This document shows positions 13,128 through 52,152 of a DNA stretch of 62,145 bases, piece after piece; position 1 is the first letter of the stretch; the number at the start of each line of letters is the position of its first letter. The position numbers and the translations under genes were made by a program. The notes under the pieces are model-generated. The model saw only the letters and a program-made list of their open reading frames with translations, did not search any database and had not been told where the DNA came from. This stretch comes from Victivallales bacterium (lineage in GTDB: Bacteria > Verrucomicrobiota > Lentisphaeria > Oligosphaerales > Oligosphaeraceae), in assembly GCA_017548425.1 (NCBI GenBank), contig JAFZAB010000164.1, positions 1 to 62,145 of the forward strand, given 5' to 3'.

Positions 13128-13164
13128 AGCTAAAAGCCTAAAGCTTAAAGCCTAAAGCAAATAC
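13128..13164 (-). repeat. 37-nt GCTTTAAGC dispersed repeat, copy 2 (inverted)
   Basis: The reverse complement of this segment matches 2747-2783 over its full length with about three exchanges between the internal GCTTTAAGC and GCTTTAGGC units. It sits 8 bp upstream of azlC. Confidence 0.8.
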
Positions 13165-13230
13165 AAATATTGTTTTAGATTCAAGGATTTGAAAAGAAAC
13201 GGACGAGAGTTGCAGAAAAATAGTTTTCGC

Positions 13231-13262
13231 TTTTAGCTTTTGGCTTTCAGCTTTAAGCTTTT
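13231..13262 (+). repeat. Degenerate copy 3 of the GCTTTAAGC repeat
   Basis: TTTTAGCTTTTGGCTTTCAG followed by CTTTAAGCTTTT shares the AGCTTT/GGCTTT period of the other two copies but is less conserved. It runs into the 3' end of the serine hydrolase gene and supplies its stop codon (13253-13255), so the repeat may have reshaped the gene's C-terminus. Confidence 0.55.
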
Positions 13263-46242: not shown

Positions 46243-46275
46243 TTCATACCATAAATGAAAACACGGAGAAAAATC

Positions 46276-46917
46276 ATGAAGAAAGCGCTTCTTTTTGCAG
46301 GCATCGCCGCGATTGTTTTGCTGAGCGGCTGCACGACCACCACGACCACCATCTATGATCCCGCCACGCAGCAGACGAATTTGCGGCAGCGCGGCAACGT
46401 CTCCGCTGAAGAGTTCCGCCTCGTCGCCAAGGAGGCGATCAACGGCGCGTTGACGAATCCGAAATTCATGAATTTCCTGGCGGCGTACAAAGCGGAAATG
46501 CAGAATCCGAACGCGATTCCCGTCATGAAACTGACGAAAGTCAAAAACGATACGGATGATCCGGATCTGAAGATCGGCGAACTGACGGATCTGCTCAGCG
46601 AAGCATTGCTGAATTCTGGCATCGTTGATGTGACCATTGCCGAAGGCGCGGATTTGCAGACGGCCATCGCCGCCTCCCGCAACATGGAAATGGATCCGAA
46701 TTTCAATCAGGCGACCGTCGCCAAGCGCGGCACGTTGACCGCCGCCCGCATCGTCCTTTGCCCGAAGGTCATTTCCAGCGAAGTGCAGGATGGCCGCACA
46801 CGGGCCGTCGTCCGCACGTTTGTTTTGGAAATGGGCGACATCAAGACTGGCCTGCTGATGTGGAAGTTCACGAAGCAGCTCGGCTTCATGAAAAAGCACG
46901 GCGTGATTGGATATTGA
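46276..46917 (+). CDS. lpoB: Penicillin-binding protein activator LpoB
   Basis: A protein of about 213 residues with lipobox LLSGC (Cys 19), followed by a Thr/Asn-rich linker (TTTTTTIYDPATQQTN). The C-terminal LpoB/CsgG-like alpha/beta domain has NPNAIPVMKLTKVKNDT, LKIGELTDLLSEALLNSG, ARIVLCPKVISSEVQDGR and GLLMWKFTKQLGF. LpoB is an outer-membrane lipoprotein that reaches through the periplasm and stimulates PBP1b. The start is ATG 46276, 7 bp after GGAG; an ATG at 46255 lies before that site. A strong terminator follows, which ends the operon. Confidence 0.85.
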   Translation: MKKALLFAGIAAIVLLSGCTTTTTTIYDPATQQTNLRQRGNVSAEEFRLVAKEAINGALTNPKFMNFLAAYKAEMQNPNAIPVMKLTKVKNDTDDPDLKIGELTDLLSEALLNSGIVDVTIAEGADLQTAIAASRNMEMDPNFNQATVAKRGTLTAARIVLCPKVISSEVQDGRTRAVVRTFVLEMGDIKTGLLMWKFTKQLGFMKKHGVIGY

Positions 46918-46946: not shown

Positions 46947-46990
46947 AAAAGGCTGTTGCAAAACCTGAAATGGTATGCAACAGCCTTTTT
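46947..46990 (+). terminator. Terminator after lpoB
   Basis: AAAAGGCTGTTGCA (46947-46960) pairs with TGCAACAGCCTTTT (46976-46989), with a 15-base loop and a T-run. It closes the CsgG/LpoB operon just before the first composite repeat. Confidence 0.9.
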
Positions 46991-46993
46991 GGG

Positions 46994-47111
46994 GCTTATG
47001 GCCTATGGCTTATGGCTTATGGTCTTCTGGAAGCTCTAGAAGCTCTGGAAGTTCTAGAAAGCAAAAGCCTTAAGCCATTGGCCATGAGCCATTAGCGCCG
47101 CCGAAGGCGGC
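46994..47111 (+). repeat. Composite palindromic repeat, copy 1
   Basis: The order is GCTTATGGCCTATGGC and CTTATGG units, four 9-bp units of the form TCTRGAAGN (TCTGGAAGC, TCTAGAAGC and so on), an AAAGCCTTAAGCCATTGGCCAT segment complementary to the start, and a terminal GCCGCC-GAA-GGCGGC hairpin (47097-47111). The second copy at 49354-49474 has the same order and orientation. Confidence 0.88.
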
Positions 47112-47137
47112 TCAGCGGCGGGACACACACTTCTGCA

Positions 47138-48121
47138 TCAAGCATGTTTGCCATTGATTGATGCCTCAAGACTTTTTAGGTCTGCAAGTATTTTATTCCA
47201 TGCAGGATAGACACCATAAATCATTTCTTGCATGCTGTCATAATCATTCAGAAGAGGCATACGGCTATGTTCCGCAGGCATCAGTTGGATTGTGCCTGGT
47301 GATGCCAAATCATATCGCGCCCATGCACGCGGATAGAATTTTCGCTTGAAATCCACAACTTGACGCAAAAGTTCCGTATTTTCCAAGGCCTGTTGACACA
47401 TGGAAGAGCAGGACATCATGAAGAGGTCGTAATAATGACGGGAGAAACGGGATGGCACTGAGAGATTTTCTGGGCGAAAATGTTCTTGATGTAGAATCGT
47501 AACTTTTTCCCAGAACGTACGTTCTGCAAGAATAGTCGGGACGCCGAATGACTGGATACCCAATTGAGGAAAAGCCTCACCAACATATGGGATGATGGGA
47601 AAGACATCGTGTGGAACCCATGATGCCAAAGGCCCGATTTCAAGCTTCACGCGTGGCAGGATGTAACCAGTTGCTTTTTCATGCGGATATTCAATCCAGA
47701 TGATATGTCCATCATCTTTATCTGCCGTTACTTGGCATTCTCCGTCAAAGACCATGGCAATCTGCTCTTTCAGTTGATGGCTGATGTAGTCCGCAGACTC
47801 CTCTTGAATACGTTTGTTGAATTTGTCCTGCTGTGCGTTTGATCGGCTTTGCATCGGATCTTCCTGCGTGACCAGCCGCCAGTCCAAAATCAAATCAACG
47901 TCTTCCGAGAAGCGTTCAATCAGATGAAACGCCTTGGAAAGGGATGTCCCGCCTTTGAAGCGCAGAATCCTGTACAATTGTGGATTCCCAAAGATTCGCG
48001 ATAACGACCAGCATACCCAGAAGTCCTTTTCGATTATATCGAATGGTATGTTTTTCAATCGGGAACACCGAATGAATAAAGTCATTCTCTCTTCAGCGTT
48101 GCTTTCAATAAGTCTTCTCAT
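47138..48121 (-). CDS. abiEii: AbiEii-type nucleotidyltransferase toxin
   Basis: A protein of about 327 residues of the PF08843 family. Marker stretches are FDIIEKDFWVCWSLSRIF, the nucleotidyltransferase core FKGGTSLSKAFHLIERFSEDVDLILDW (G-G-T-S and the D-x-D pair), and LPRVKLEIGPLASW. The toxin of type IV AbiE systems transfers nucleotides to tRNA or similar acceptors. The ATG overlaps the stop of the antitoxin gene (ATGA), and GGGAG sits 6 bp upstream; an ATG 21 bp earlier lacks a site. It lies inside an island bounded by two composite repeats. Confidence 0.9.
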   Translation of the reverse strand: MRRLIESNAEERMTLFIRCSRLKNIPFDIIEKDFWVCWSLSRIFGNPQLYRILRFKGGTSLSKAFHLIERFSEDVDLILDWRLVTQEDPMQSRSNAQQDKFNKRIQEESADYISHQLKEQIAMVFDGECQVTADKDDGHIIWIEYPHEKATGYILPRVKLEIGPLASWVPHDVFPIIPYVGEAFPQLGIQSFGVPTILAERTFWEKVTILHQEHFRPENLSVPSRFSRHYYDLFMMSCSSMCQQALENTELLRQVVDFKRKFYPRAWARYDLASPGTIQLMPAEHSRMPLLNDYDSMQEMIYGVYPAWNKILADLKSLEASINGKHA

Positions 48122-48732
48122 ATTGATCTCCCTTGTGTGCAAATATTTCGCACTTTCTCCACTATCCAGATCGGTGCTGCGGAAATATCTTCAAATATCT
48201 TTTCCCACGTTTCTAGTGGAAATCTCTTAGCGAGGCGGGCGGTATTTTTATCCGTCATTTGCCTTTCTCCAAAAGCCATTAGGCCTTGCACCACTATCAG
48301 ACTTTCCTCATGCTTGAATGTCATCCAACGCTTGCTGGTATGTCGGAATTGCAGTTCACAGTTTTCCACATTGTATTTACGATTGGGCCCGTCGGAAATA
48401 TAAATGGTTCTTCCGGGAATCTGCGTGGACAGGCCTAGATTGTTCAATGCGGCTTCACCGCTCGGACAAATTTTCCATTGGAATTTTCTGGCAATCGCAT
48501 AAGCCAATGAATCCAAATCAGTAGCAACTTCACATTGTAGAAGTTCACTGTATCTCGGATATTCATAAATGCCTGGGATGACACGTCGAATGAAGCCTTC
48601 CACTGTTAGCCGGACAAAGCTCTCATCTATTTCATGCCGATGAAAATAGACAAGAAAATCATTGGCGCACCATAGTTTGCCGCGTCCGCCTTGTTCGATT
48701 CTGTCTTGAATTTTCTTCTTTGTGGAAATCAT
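48118..48732 (-). CDS. abiEi: AbiEi-like antitoxin (DUF6088-type)
   Basis: A 204-residue protein. An N-terminal winged-helix region (KIQDRIEQGGRGKLWCANDF, FVRLTVEGFIRRVIPGIYEYP) is typical of the AbiEi antitoxin DNA-binding part, which represses the promoter. The remainder matches DUF6088 (ICPSGEAALNNLGLSTQIP, RHTSKRWM). It is the upstream gene of the pair, with a 4-base ATGA overlap with the toxin. The gene and its leader are AT-rich compared with the surroundings. It neutralises the AbiEii toxin without direct toxin modification in known systems. Confidence 0.85.
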   Translation of the reverse strand: MISTKKKIQDRIEQGGRGKLWCANDFLVYFHRHEIDESFVRLTVEGFIRRVIPGIYEYPRYSELLQCEVATDLDSLAYAIARKFQWKICPSGEAALNNLGLSTQIPGRTIYISDGPNRKYNVENCELQFRHTSKRWMTFKHEESLIVVQGLMAFGERQMTDKNTARLAKRFPLETWEKIFEDISAAPIWIVEKVRNICTQGRSI

Positions 48733-49079
48733 TTTGCCATGCTCCTCTTAATAATGATAGAAAAATATAGCCTAATTTCTATCAAAATCAAATTCCAAAT
48801 AGAAAATATGGAGCTTTTAGAACAAAAAAAATCAATAAGTAATATACAATATCTATATTGAAAAGAAAATAAAATAAGTCTTTTTCAAGAAAGTGGCGGC
48901 GGCTGGTGTGGCTGAAGCGTCTCGCTTTCGCATGGTATGCCGCTGGCACACCCTCGCAGGCATTCGCCCGCGTGCGACGGCGGGGCGCCGCCGCCACACT
49001 CCACACGCAGGCGGGACGCACCGCGGGACCTCCACAAAAATCCTTTTTTCTGTTTGCAATCCTTGAAACGGCCATCGCC
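48733..49079. other. AT-rich leader followed by a GC-rich inverted-repeat element
   Basis: The first 150 bp, the probable abiE promoter region, are very AT-rich and hold no gene. They are followed abruptly by a GC-rich segment described separately at 48893-48997, and then by a short remnant joining the surface-protein fragment. No intact gene is supported here. Confidence 0.5.
48893..48997. repeat. 105-bp GC-rich element with perfect 11-bp terminal inverted repeats
   Basis: GTGGCGGCGGC (48893-48903) is the exact reverse complement of GCCGCCGCCAC (48987-48997). The interior is GC-rich and frame-open in several frames without matching a protein family. It could be a small palindromic repeat or MITE-like unit. 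Confidence 0.5.
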
Positions 49080-49337
49080 GTAAGGGTGACGGCGACGTAC
49101 AAGGCCAAGGCACCGCAGGAATTCACGGTGACGGTCGAGAACGGCGTCGCCGACAAGGCGACGGCCGCCAAGGGCGAGACTGTCACGATCACGGCGGCGG
49201 AGCCGCCTGCGAAGAAGCAGTTCTACAAGTGGACGTGCATCGGCCTCACGTTTGAAGACGCGAACGTCGTGCAGACGACGTTCGTCATGCCGAAGAAGTC
49301 CGTCTGGGTGAAGGCGAATTACACGGCTGCGCCGTAA
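49080..49337 (+). pseudogene. C-terminal remnant of an InlB B-repeat-type surface protein
   Basis: About 85 residues end in a stop. VRVTATYKAK closes one repeat, and a second beta repeat follows (TVTVENGVADKATAAKGETVTITA, FYKWTCIGLTF, TFVMPKKSVWVKANYT). This pattern (VxVxxG, GxxVTIxA, FxxW, FxMP...VxANY) is the divergent InlB B-repeat of bacterial surface adhesins. No start, signal peptide or upstream repeats exist, and the upstream DNA belongs to the GC-rich element, so this is the broken end of a once larger gene. Its GC-rich codon use differs from the neighbouring abiE genes. Confidence 0.65.
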
Positions 49338-49353
49338 ATCACGATCCGCGTGA

Positions 49354-49474
49354 TGCTTATGGCTTATGGCTTATGGTTTTCTGGAAGCTCTAGAAGATCT
49401 AGAAGATCTAGAAGATCTAGAAAGCGAAAGCCTTAAGCCATTGGCCATAGGCCATAAGCGCCGCCGCAGGCGGC
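49354..49474 (+). repeat. Composite palindromic repeat, copy 2
   Basis: Same order as 46994-47111: three GCTTATGG-type units, five TCTRGAAGN 9-mers (from about 49380 to 49424, so one more than copy 1), a palindromic GCCATTGGCCATAGGCCATAAGC segment, and GCCGCC-GCA-GGCGGC (49460-49474). It ends at the stop codon of the next gene. The two copies are direct repeats 2.36 kb apart. Confidence 0.88.
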
Positions 49475-52152
49475 TACAATCTCCACTCCAGCACGCCTTT
49501 GCCTTGGATGTTGGCGATGAAGGCGTTGTGTTCGGGGAGCCAGTTGATTGAAATGGCTTTGCCCTGCCAGAGGACTTCGGACGGCTTGGCGGAAACTCCT
49601 GTTATCAGCACATCCGTCGGTTTGGCGGGCCATAAATCCAACGTCGCGGAAGAATCGGAAGTGGCTTTGATATCGCCCAATGCGTGAATGAAACGGCCTA
49701 TTTTCAACATCTTGACGTTGATGATCGGCGTTTCGTTGTAGGCCTGCGGCATGAACAGCTGGATCGTGCCCGGATTGATGGACGGACCGCCTTTCATGGC
49801 TGCTTTAAGGATGTAGGAATCAGGGAGAAGGCCAATCAGTTCGGGGCTGTCGCCGTCGCGTTGCTGATAGGTGAACTGCAGGCCGGTCATCGTGATGCCG
49901 GCGGCGATTCTGTCCCAGATGGTGCGTTTGGCGGAATCGTCAAGAATGTCCATGTATTCGTAAAGGGCGTTACGATAGACGGCTCCGCACCACTGGACGG
50001 GAAGGCCGATCCAGTTGGCCGCCGTCCAGAACGTCGCTCCGAGCACGGCGATCGTGCTGTACAAGCCTTTGGGATTCAAATGTTCAACGGGATTGACGAG
50101 ATAGACGAACGGAACGCCTGTCAGCGCCCAATATTCGGCCTCTTTCAGATATTTGGCGTCGCCTGAAATCTTGTAGGCGTTGACGGCGAGGACGAGCATG
50201 TAGGCGGATCCGAGAATGTCGGGAGTATGCAACGGAATCTCCCACGTCTGGGCACCACGCGGAACATCGTTGCGATAGCAGGAGAAGATACGGTCGATTG
50301 TTTTCAGATATTTTTCACGAATCGACGGATTGGCGGAGGCGAGCACGAATTTGGCGGAACCCATGACGCTAGTGGCCGTCAGGCCATTGGCGTGGTCCGC
50401 CCAATGCGTCGTGCCGTAGTTTAATTTGATGTCCGATGGTGCGGGACGGAAGGGATAGCTGCCGTCCCAACGAAGCCTGTCGAGATTATGATTGGCGTGG
50501 ACGACGACGGCCTTCAGCCAGTCTTCGCAGACGCCTTGATAGAGGAAGCTGAAGAGATTGTGGTAGTTATGGGAGATGCTGCTGCCGAAGTCTTTGGGCT
50601 GAAGAGTCGGAAGCGTCTGAGCAATGCAATCTTGAAGACGTTTCGCAAGTTCTTTGTCAGTCGTCTTTTGCGCGATATAATCCATGAGGACGATTGGATC
50701 GAAGGCTTGTCTAGGCGGGTGGTGATCGCTCTTGGTGTGGGCATGCCGCCATTGGTTTCCTTCGCGGACGACGGAATCCAGCCAACCATGAGCAAGCATG
50801 GACAAAGCGCCTTGGAAACCGTCTTCATAGACGGGCGGCGGCGGAAGCGGATTGCGCTCCATGTAGTCCGTGATGGCGGAGGCTACGGTGTCGTCATTGT
50901 CGCCGACGGCAATCGTCGCTTCCAGTTTCATGGGAATGTTTTTATCTATAGGAATGGCGTGATAAACGCGGAAATCATTTTCAATTCTTTCCTGCCGCGG
51001 GCCGGGCGACCAGAGGGCGAATAGATGCGCGTTGGTGTGGAACTGACGGTCGGGAGAATCGAAAATGGTCGTGGGAAACTTGTCGTATTCCCATGAAAGC
51101 GAGAGCCAATGCTTTTTGTGGGAGATCGCCATGAGCGGAAAACAGAGTTTATAGTCATCGACCATACGGCGGTTTGCTTTCTGGGGGGCGAAATCCTTGG
51201 TGTCTGACGACGGTTCATCGACAAGATATTCGACGCCCGCCAACAGGCCCTGCGTCTTATGCGAACCGAATGATCCAAGCCCCGGAAATAGCGTGATCCA
51301 AGGCATTTGGACGATTTGGCGGTCTTCCGTCACACGAATGGACGTCGTGATATTGACAGCATTACCGTAGGCGGCCATGAATGTGCGGACGGCCGTCCAT
51401 TCCGCACCGCCGCTGTCTTTGAAAATGGCGGTGGCGGTCATGGAGGAAGCGGTTCGGGAGATGGTCGTGACGGCGTCTTCGGCGAGATTGAAGATTTCCG
51501 TTTTGCCGTTGACGATACATGCGAACAGCGGTCGATCATGGGCGGAGGCAAATGGAACACGATTGTTTTCAATGACATAGGCATCCCATTTGTCTGGAGC
51601 GTGGCGGATGGTCAGCTTGCCGGAAGACAGGACGGCGGCATCATCGCCGACGACAATCGGGGAGGGCGTGATGTCGAATTGCGGCTTGAAAAGCGTCGGC
51701 ATGGGGATCGCCTTGATGGTGGCGACGGTGATTTCGCCGTCGTACATGCATGGATCGATACGTAGGCGAGAATCATCGGTAAGTCGCGGGATGATAACGC
51801 GTTTGGTGACCCATTCATTGCGGCCGTCATTGGTGAATCCCGTCTGGCGGACAGGCGTGAAACTGGGGCCGTAGAAGATTGAGATGCTCTTGCCAGTTCC
51901 TTTGAAACGGAATTCAAGGATGAGTTGCTCATAGTCGCCGTCGGGCAGTTTGGGAATGACCGGGCCTTCAATCCACGGGTCTTCACGGCTGGAACTGACG
52001 GCGTGGAGGCCTTCATCCGTTGGCGTGACGGAGGCGATGTCATGGTTGCCAAACCATCCGCAAGTGTTTTTGTTGCGGAAATCGAAGAGCATGGTTTCCT
52101 GCGCATGGATGAAAACGGCAAGGAGGATGAAAGTCGCGGCCAGTTGTCTCAT
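49474..52152 (-). CDS. Secreted large protein, likely (alpha/alpha)-toroid glycan-active enzyme
   Basis: An 892-residue protein with a signal peptide (MRQLAATFILLAVFIHA). Residues 20-150 resemble a carbohydrate-binding sandwich (MLFDFRNKNTCGWFGNH). Residues 170-420 are beta-rich (hydrolase-like N-domain). The remaining 450 residues are helical, with histidine/aspartate-bearing stretches (SHNYHNLFSFLYQGV, THWADHANGLTATSVMG, PLHTPDILGSAYMLVLAVNAYK) suggestive of an alpha/alpha-barrel enzyme. I do not recognise the exact GH or lyase family. The gene's stop coincides with the end of the repeat. It is followed by the Trk genes on the same strand. Confidence 0.6.
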   Translation of the reverse strand: MRQLAATFILLAVFIHAQETMLFDFRNKNTCGWFGNHDIASVTPTDEGLHAVSSSREDPWIEGPVIPKLPDGDYEQLILEFRFKGTGKSISIFYGPSFTPVRQTGFTNDGRNEWVTKRVIIPRLTDDSRLRIDPCMYDGEITVATIKAIPMPTLFKPQFDITPSPIVVGDDAAVLSSGKLTIRHAPDKWDAYVIENNRVPFASAHDRPLFACIVNGKTEIFNLAEDAVTTISRTASSMTATAIFKDSGGAEWTAVRTFMAAYGNAVNITTSIRVTEDRQIVQMPWITLFPGLGSFGSHKTQGLLAGVEYLVDEPSSDTKDFAPQKANRRMVDDYKLCFPLMAISHKKHWLSLSWEYDKFPTTIFDSPDRQFHTNAHLFALWSPGPRQERIENDFRVYHAIPIDKNIPMKLEATIAVGDNDDTVASAITDYMERNPLPPPPVYEDGFQGALSMLAHGWLDSVVREGNQWRHAHTKSDHHPPRQAFDPIVLMDYIAQKTTDKELAKRLQDCIAQTLPTLQPKDFGSSISHNYHNLFSFLYQGVCEDWLKAVVVHANHNLDRLRWDGSYPFRPAPSDIKLNYGTTHWADHANGLTATSVMGSAKFVLASANPSIREKYLKTIDRIFSCYRNDVPRGAQTWEIPLHTPDILGSAYMLVLAVNAYKISGDAKYLKEAEYWALTGVPFVYLVNPVEHLNPKGLYSTIAVLGATFWTAANWIGLPVQWCGAVYRNALYEYMDILDDSAKRTIWDRIAAGITMTGLQFTYQQRDGDSPELIGLLPDSYILKAAMKGGPSINPGTIQLFMPQAYNETPIINVKMLKIGRFIHALGDIKATSDSSATLDLWPAKPTDVLITGVSAKPSEVLWQGKAISINWLPEHNAFIANIQGKGVLEWRL

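Follow-up and report, generated by a model that had tools for sequence, protein, structure and literature searches.

The two composite repeats that bracket an AbiE gene pair on this contig probably represent a lineage-specific, REP/BIME-like mosaic of gene 3' ends with 7- and 9-bp VNTRs, located in an insertion hotspot, and not the carrier of AbiE. The AbiE interval itself is an accessory island in a convergent-gene hotspot of gene turnover. The window (the whole stretch of DNA analysed, 62,145 nucleotides) is contig C151 of a 4.9-Mb, 248-contig rumen Victivallales MAG; the features of the hotspot are compiled in Table 1.

Table 1. Features of the AbiE hotspot and its flanks (positions in the window).
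Feature	Position	Strand	Evidence
LpoB-like lipoprotein gene (PF13036), left flank of hotspot	46255..46917	+	profile match
Intrinsic-terminator-like hairpin of LpoB, 14-bp perfect stem + T run, directly left of composite A	46947..46989	+	
Composite A, left heptamer arm, 4 units GCTTATG/GCCTATG	46994..47022	+	
Composite A, 9-bp array, about 4 units TCTAGAAGC/TCTGGAAGC	47023..47060	+	
Composite A, right heptamer arm, complementary to left arm	47061..47096	+	
Composite A, triloop hairpin GCCGCC-GAA-GGCGGC, 26 bp from abiEii stop codon	47097..47111	-	
abiEii, AbiEii toxin-like nucleotidyltransferase	47138..48142	-	PF08843 E=5e-30; PADLOC AbiEii E=3e-95
AbiEi antitoxin-like gene	48118..48732	-	PF19570 (DUF6088) E=4e-29; PADLOC AbiEi E=4e-53
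GC-rich dispersed repeat, 44 local matches in genome	~48890..49045	.	
3' end of InlB-B-repeat protein gene (PF18998), 5' side truncated	49062..49337	+	
Composite B, left hairpin ATCACG-ATCCG-CGTGAT, immediately after InlB stop codon	49338..49354	+	
Composite B, left heptamer arm, 3 units	49355..49376	+	
Composite B, 9-bp array, about 5 units TCTAGAAGA	49377..49423	+	
Composite B, right heptamer arm	49424..49459	+	
Composite B, triloop hairpin GCCGCC-GCA-GGCGGC, last base within TAG stop of 892-aa gene	49460..49474	-	
892-aa protein gene, right flank of hotspot	49474..52152	-	

From the LpoB-like gene to the 892-aa gene, the order of elements is terminator hairpin, composite A, abiEii, abiEi-like gene, GC-rich repeat, InlB 3' end and composite B. 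Both flank genes are kept in the two congeners G004 and G002 (LpoB-like orthologues: 93% and 91% identity; 892-aa gene: 95% and 87%), and an assembly chimera at the AbiE locus was considered unlikely because their synteny holds in both genomes. The 892-aa protein had no match in the Pfam or NCBIfam profiles, and a tRNA was the sole match in the Rfam scan of the window. Further heptamer arrays (GCTTTAA / AAAGCCT) are present in the window at 2744-2783, 13128-13167 and 13224-13262; the first two are 90% complementary over 40 nt at a distance of 10 kb.

The first-pass annotation, made from the letters of the sequence, had placed an AbiE module, a GC-rich inverted-repeat element and a broken adhesin end between the composites. 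Pfam and PADLOC profiles confirmed the pair at 47138-48732 as an AbiEii toxin-like gene with an adjoining AbiEi-type partner, a predicted AbiE toxin-antitoxin system; against the NCBIfam AbiEi equivalog, the AbiEi-like protein reached 27 of 150 bits, far under the cut-off. The adhesin end was likewise recovered as the last InlB-B repeat of a protein whose intact paralogue is encoded on C113 (84% protein identity to part of that gene); the donor locus was not found, the nearest paralogue (C113) being without a composite downstream. The GC-rich element is a dispersed repeat, but its folding is only weakly better than that of shuffled sequences (z=-1.8).

The composites (A: 46994-47112; B: 49338-49475; 112-121 bp) contain their parts in identical order, and repeat finding, alignment and folding all agreed with the initial description of TATGGC units, 9-bp array, arm and GCCGCC-GNA-GGCGGC hairpin: TRF delimited 7-bp arrays at 46993-47022 and 49355-49376 as well as 9-bp arrays of 3.8 (A) and 4.8 (B) units; A and B were 84% identical over 121 bp in a gapped alignment (E=3e-33) and, ungapped, 89% identical over 87 bp and 92% over 59 bp; compared with dinucleotide shuffles, folding reached z = -9.8 for A (adjacent terminator included) and z = -6.6 for B. 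In each composite, a heptamer arm, the 9-bp array and the complementary second arm together form a long imperfect palindrome, after which comes the GC triloop hairpin. Three features go beyond that description, i.e. the LpoB terminator before A, the overlap of the B hairpin with the stop codon of the 892-aa gene, and the left hairpin of B, which resembles GTCACGCTKTGCGTGAC found beside other composites. The complementarity of left and right arms within a copy was not above that between copies (permutation p=0.75); arm pairing is therefore not individually maintained.

For the genome-wide survey, the module was defined as the CCGCC-NNN-GGCGG hairpin plus heptamer tail (GCTTATG) and searched as an exact pattern. 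It was present in 31 copies in this genome, 25 in G004 and 2 in G002 and was absent from 38 further genomes of the order, two congeneric ones among them, and the reversed control pattern gave zero matches in every genome searched; since all genomes are fragmented MAGs with contig ends often near repeats, these counts are lower bounds. This distribution points to a recently spread repeat family particular to one Victivallales clade. With composite B as query, 85 local matches were obtained in the genome, of which only five were near-full composites (two in the window, one on C124 and two in tandem on C160); the remaining matches are largely to the 9-bp array or to the half made up of heptamers and hairpin. 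The building blocks thus occur at more than 30 places, at gene 3' ends and whether an island is present or not, so that the relation to islands expected in the first-pass annotation was not borne out. The 9-bp arrays are more widespread than the module and reach several genera of the family. The C124 composite is common to G004 at the orthologous site, and some copies therefore predate the split of these two species.

Orthologous gaps of the three species are often wholly replaced by different repeat vocabularies at approximately 90% flank identity, with heptamers CCACTAA or GCTTAAT, 9-mers, 22-bp and 36-bp arrays and several hairpin families as stand-ins. At L112, L079, L090 and other orthologous gaps of G002 and G004, 36-bp units holding CCACCGATCCCGCAGGAGCGGGA, 22-bp units CGAGACGCCCTCGTTACTTTTG and GCTTAAT heptamers were noted; the differing arrays at the L112, L079 and L090 gene pairs amount to a very fast turnover of intergenic DNA. 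Exact unit indels were directly observed in orthologous arrays, i.e. 18 bp (two 9-mers) at L007/L077 and 7 bp (one heptamer) at L005/L118. No convincing target-site duplications were detected, the 4-bp matches around copies being at chance level; because the orthologous gaps differ along their whole length, insertion ends are unreadable. The opposite ends of most composites bear unrelated hairpins. At L025, L027 and L029 (around 1390-1500), where no gene end was called, the hairpin comes after a longer segment (GAATGCCTCGCAGACGTCGGCC..TAGCCGCC) that recurs at all three loci.

The position of the module relative to genes, which were placed with a simple codon-usage ORF caller and are approximate calls, was strongly asymmetric: the hairpin side lay at most 9 bp from the stop codon at 26 of the 41 sites facing a gene 3' end, mostly at 0-3 bp, in contrast to the heptamer side, which did so at none of 31 such sites and never came closer than 18 bp (Fisher p=2e-9). 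Gene contexts of the module were convergent in 21, tandem in 24 and divergent in 3 cases (best-match sites: 17, 12 and 3, respectively). Typical junctions read TAG-CCGCC, TAA-GCCGCC and TGA-GCCGCC; the triplet before the hairpin (n=58) was most often TAG (18), AAG (14) or GAG (8), with GTAG in 4 cases. Exceptions to this rule include composite A itself, with its hairpin 26 bp and not 0-3 bp from the abiEii stop codon, 15 of the 41 hairpins facing a 3' end at a distance of more than 20 bp, and 12 hairpins that face a 5' end, five of them within 10 bp, which may be errors of the ORF caller. Where comparable, relatives without the element have the stop codon at an identical or almost identical place (e.g. 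the 892-aa gene and L016); the element therefore abuts native gene ends and does not truncate genes. At L018, a hairpin of another kind immediately follows this stop codon in the relatives. Each window copy occupies a gap between convergent genes and turns its hairpin toward the minus-strand gene (A 26 bp off, B overlapping the stop codon), and the two form direct repeats because the genes faced, abiEii and the 892-aa gene, are both encoded on the minus strand.

This explanation of the direct orientation by gene strand removes one argument for the view that the AbiE interval was brought in or excised by recombination between direct composites, or that a composite was duplicated and cargo then captured, a view that we consider unlikely. 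It could also draw on the presence of two of the only five near-full composites of the genome at this site, on the two copies that lie side by side in direct orientation on C160 (unit of 127 bp, 17 bp of it flank) and on contig C1 of G004, where three near-identical direct composites surround a 346-aa ORF. However, A and B are 88.7% identical, compared with 89.3% for A and copy C160a, and are thus not sister copies; unlike the G004 C1 copies compared, which are 97% identical with flank sequence included, they therefore do not resemble the two ends of one recent insertion. Neither of the two marks of a composite transposon, flanking copies that are mutually closest or a target-site duplication, was found. 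The G004 locus (L069 4673-6626), in which the second and third composite bracket the AT-rich ORF with weak Rpn-family matches, fits the idea of a repeat-bracketed cassette better than the window does, and owing to this local duplication around an accessory ORF the recombination model is retained as a minority view.

The same site in the relatives also speaks against recombination between the composites. In G004, the LpoB-like and the 892-aa gene are separated by a GC-rich filler of approximately 80 bp, which has a hairpin immediately after the 892-aa stop codon and lacks both AbiE and composites; in G002, the gap is occupied by 7.2 kb of other genes (PLD-like, DUF6088/AbiEi-like, ADP-ribosylglycohydrolase, split Schlafen/AlbA-type and DUF6259-type), again without composites. 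The G002 DUF6088/AbiEi-like gene has no AbiEii partner and its product shares 44% identity with the AbiEi-like protein of the window. An empty site holding a single composite was not found. The interval, which G004 lacks and in place of which G002 has unrelated cargo, is hence not carried by all relatives, in agreement with its initial designation as an island. The closest AbiEii relatives (72% identity in G009 and G022, both of other genera of the family; 53% in G021) are encoded at loci with neither heptamers nor the GC hairpin. As the G004 and G002 gaps differ and the loci of the AbiEii relatives are without the repeats, AbiE counts as accessory at this site, and the repeats do not move along with it. 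Within the G002 version of the hotspot, the Schlafen/AlbA_2 plus HATPase_c_4 gene (L066 7819-9199) is split into two overlapping frames and ends in several copies of a 21-bp in-frame repeat (ENAPQKT).

Mobilisation of the elements as REPIN/REP by a resident RAYT (Y1 transposase) would be in keeping with their REP-like size, their extragenic 3'-end position, the up to 31 copies with burst-like copy number within the genus, and four PF01797 matches in the genome, two of them strong; we nevertheless judge it very unlikely. The module was present within about 1.5 kb at none of nine inspected RAYT loci, Y1 transposases occur in 23 of 25 relatives, module-free ones included, a conserved GTAG or CGTC tag is absent (GTAG in 4 of 58), and the module is not an inverted REP doublet; neither a RAYT flanked by the element nor an inverted doublet, as expected of RAYT-mobilised REPINs, was encountered. 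The RAYT on C38 has a different element at its flanks: here (L032 1270-1391 and 1878-1998), a Y1/RAYT-type gene lies between 122-bp inverted copies (86%) of a dispersed GC-rich element, an arrangement that resembles the 'TIRtrons' (PMC3733652). Further copies of this element are located at L030 1130-1262 and inside the G002 version of the hotspot (L066 7463-7585). No partner enzyme for the spread of the repeats was found. The initial proposal that recombination or a repeat-mobilising enzyme could have imported the cassette is not supported in view of the non-sister copies, the repeat-free loci of the AbiEii relatives and RAYTs that are present in the genome yet unlinked to the repeats.

As imperfect palindromes of approximately 120 bp close behind stop codons, in direct orientation around an ORF pair, the composites could further be taken for attC-like sites 3' of integron-type cassette ORFs. 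This is extremely improbable: the GTTRRRY/RYYYAAC core occurs on neither strand, the genome contains weak Xer-like matches but no integrase above cut-off, although relatives within the order do possess true integrases, and the modules cap core genes. Integron integrases above the TIGR02249 cut-off were present in six order-level relatives (G025, G027, G028, G030, G032, G033) and in none of the genomes of this family searched.

In the favored reading of the composites as a REP/BIME-like mosaic of gene ends, the module in gene direction would comprise the stop codon (0-3 nt), the AG-CCGCC-NNN-GGCGG(C) hairpin and the heptamer tail (GCTTATG). Between convergent genes, one hairpin-plus-heptamer unit per side and a middle 9-bp VNTR or other filler would form the long imperfect palindrome, and slippage, as the presumed cause of the indels, would change the number of units. 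The AbiE pair would be an accessory insert, the composites being neither its companions nor a duplicated pair resulting from its insertion. By analogy with REPs, the elements probably give transcripts a structured 3' end, which would protect the mRNA or influence termination and ribosome release. Less plausibly, they might be mobile repeats of a new class, with oriented insertion precisely at the stop codon, genus-level bursts of spread without RAYT, exchange for other hairpin families at identical gene ends and, through local duplication, a capacity to bracket accessory genes; we give this possibility little weight. The favored reading replaces an apparent mobile cassette by a statement on gene ends that can be tested: close species of these rumen bacteria exchange whole intergenic gaps, but a hairpin behind the stop codon persists in several cases, with a different family each time, so that conserved position becomes separable from conserved sequence. 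The system offers a natural experiment on the effect of 3'-end hairpins and on the spread of REP-like repeats without a recognisable transposase.

Defence hotspots are well documented (e.g. PMC10121019), and the accessory pair of AbiEii and AbiEi-like partner corresponds to AbiE type IV systems in chromosomal hotspots; unlike other AbiE hotspots, the site is a convergent intergenic gap at which no integrase or tRNA gene was seen. The heptamer arrays are comparable to the cyanobacterial STRR and the Xanthomonas/Nostoc GGGNATC repeats, which are 7-bp, intergenic and variable in unit number between close relatives (PMC4692102), but they consist of a different unit and are fused in one orientation to a hairpin at stop codons. 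With REPINs they share long hairpins from inverted parts and tandem clusters including flank, as on C160 and G004 C1 (PMC3116915), whereas the inverted parts here are heptamer arrays, and the terminal hairpins usually differ and form no REP doublet. The literature search revealed no description of such repeats in Lentisphaerota/Victivallales, and the family and its heptamer tail look undescribed within the literature searched; the broader initial claim that a composite repeat with a variable core is not a listed element type was overstated, since mosaics of palindromes and short motifs are of the known REP/BIME kind. REP/BIME elements are extragenic palindrome mosaics that lie mainly in convergent or co-directional gaps near 3' ends and sometimes supply the TAG stop (PMC3733652), and in E. 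coli, ribosomes can be stalled by REPs that lie no more than 15 nt from a stop codon (PMC12306157). The present elements differ from these in the tetranucleotide at the palindrome foot, which is not conserved as in the GTAG/CGTC class, in the lack of a detectable RAYT association, in the fixed heptamer tail on one side and in the 9-bp VNTR cores. They agree with them, however, in being dispersed extragenic palindromes of many copies (31) that are situated in convergent and co-directional gaps downstream of genes, at or overlapping the stop codons.
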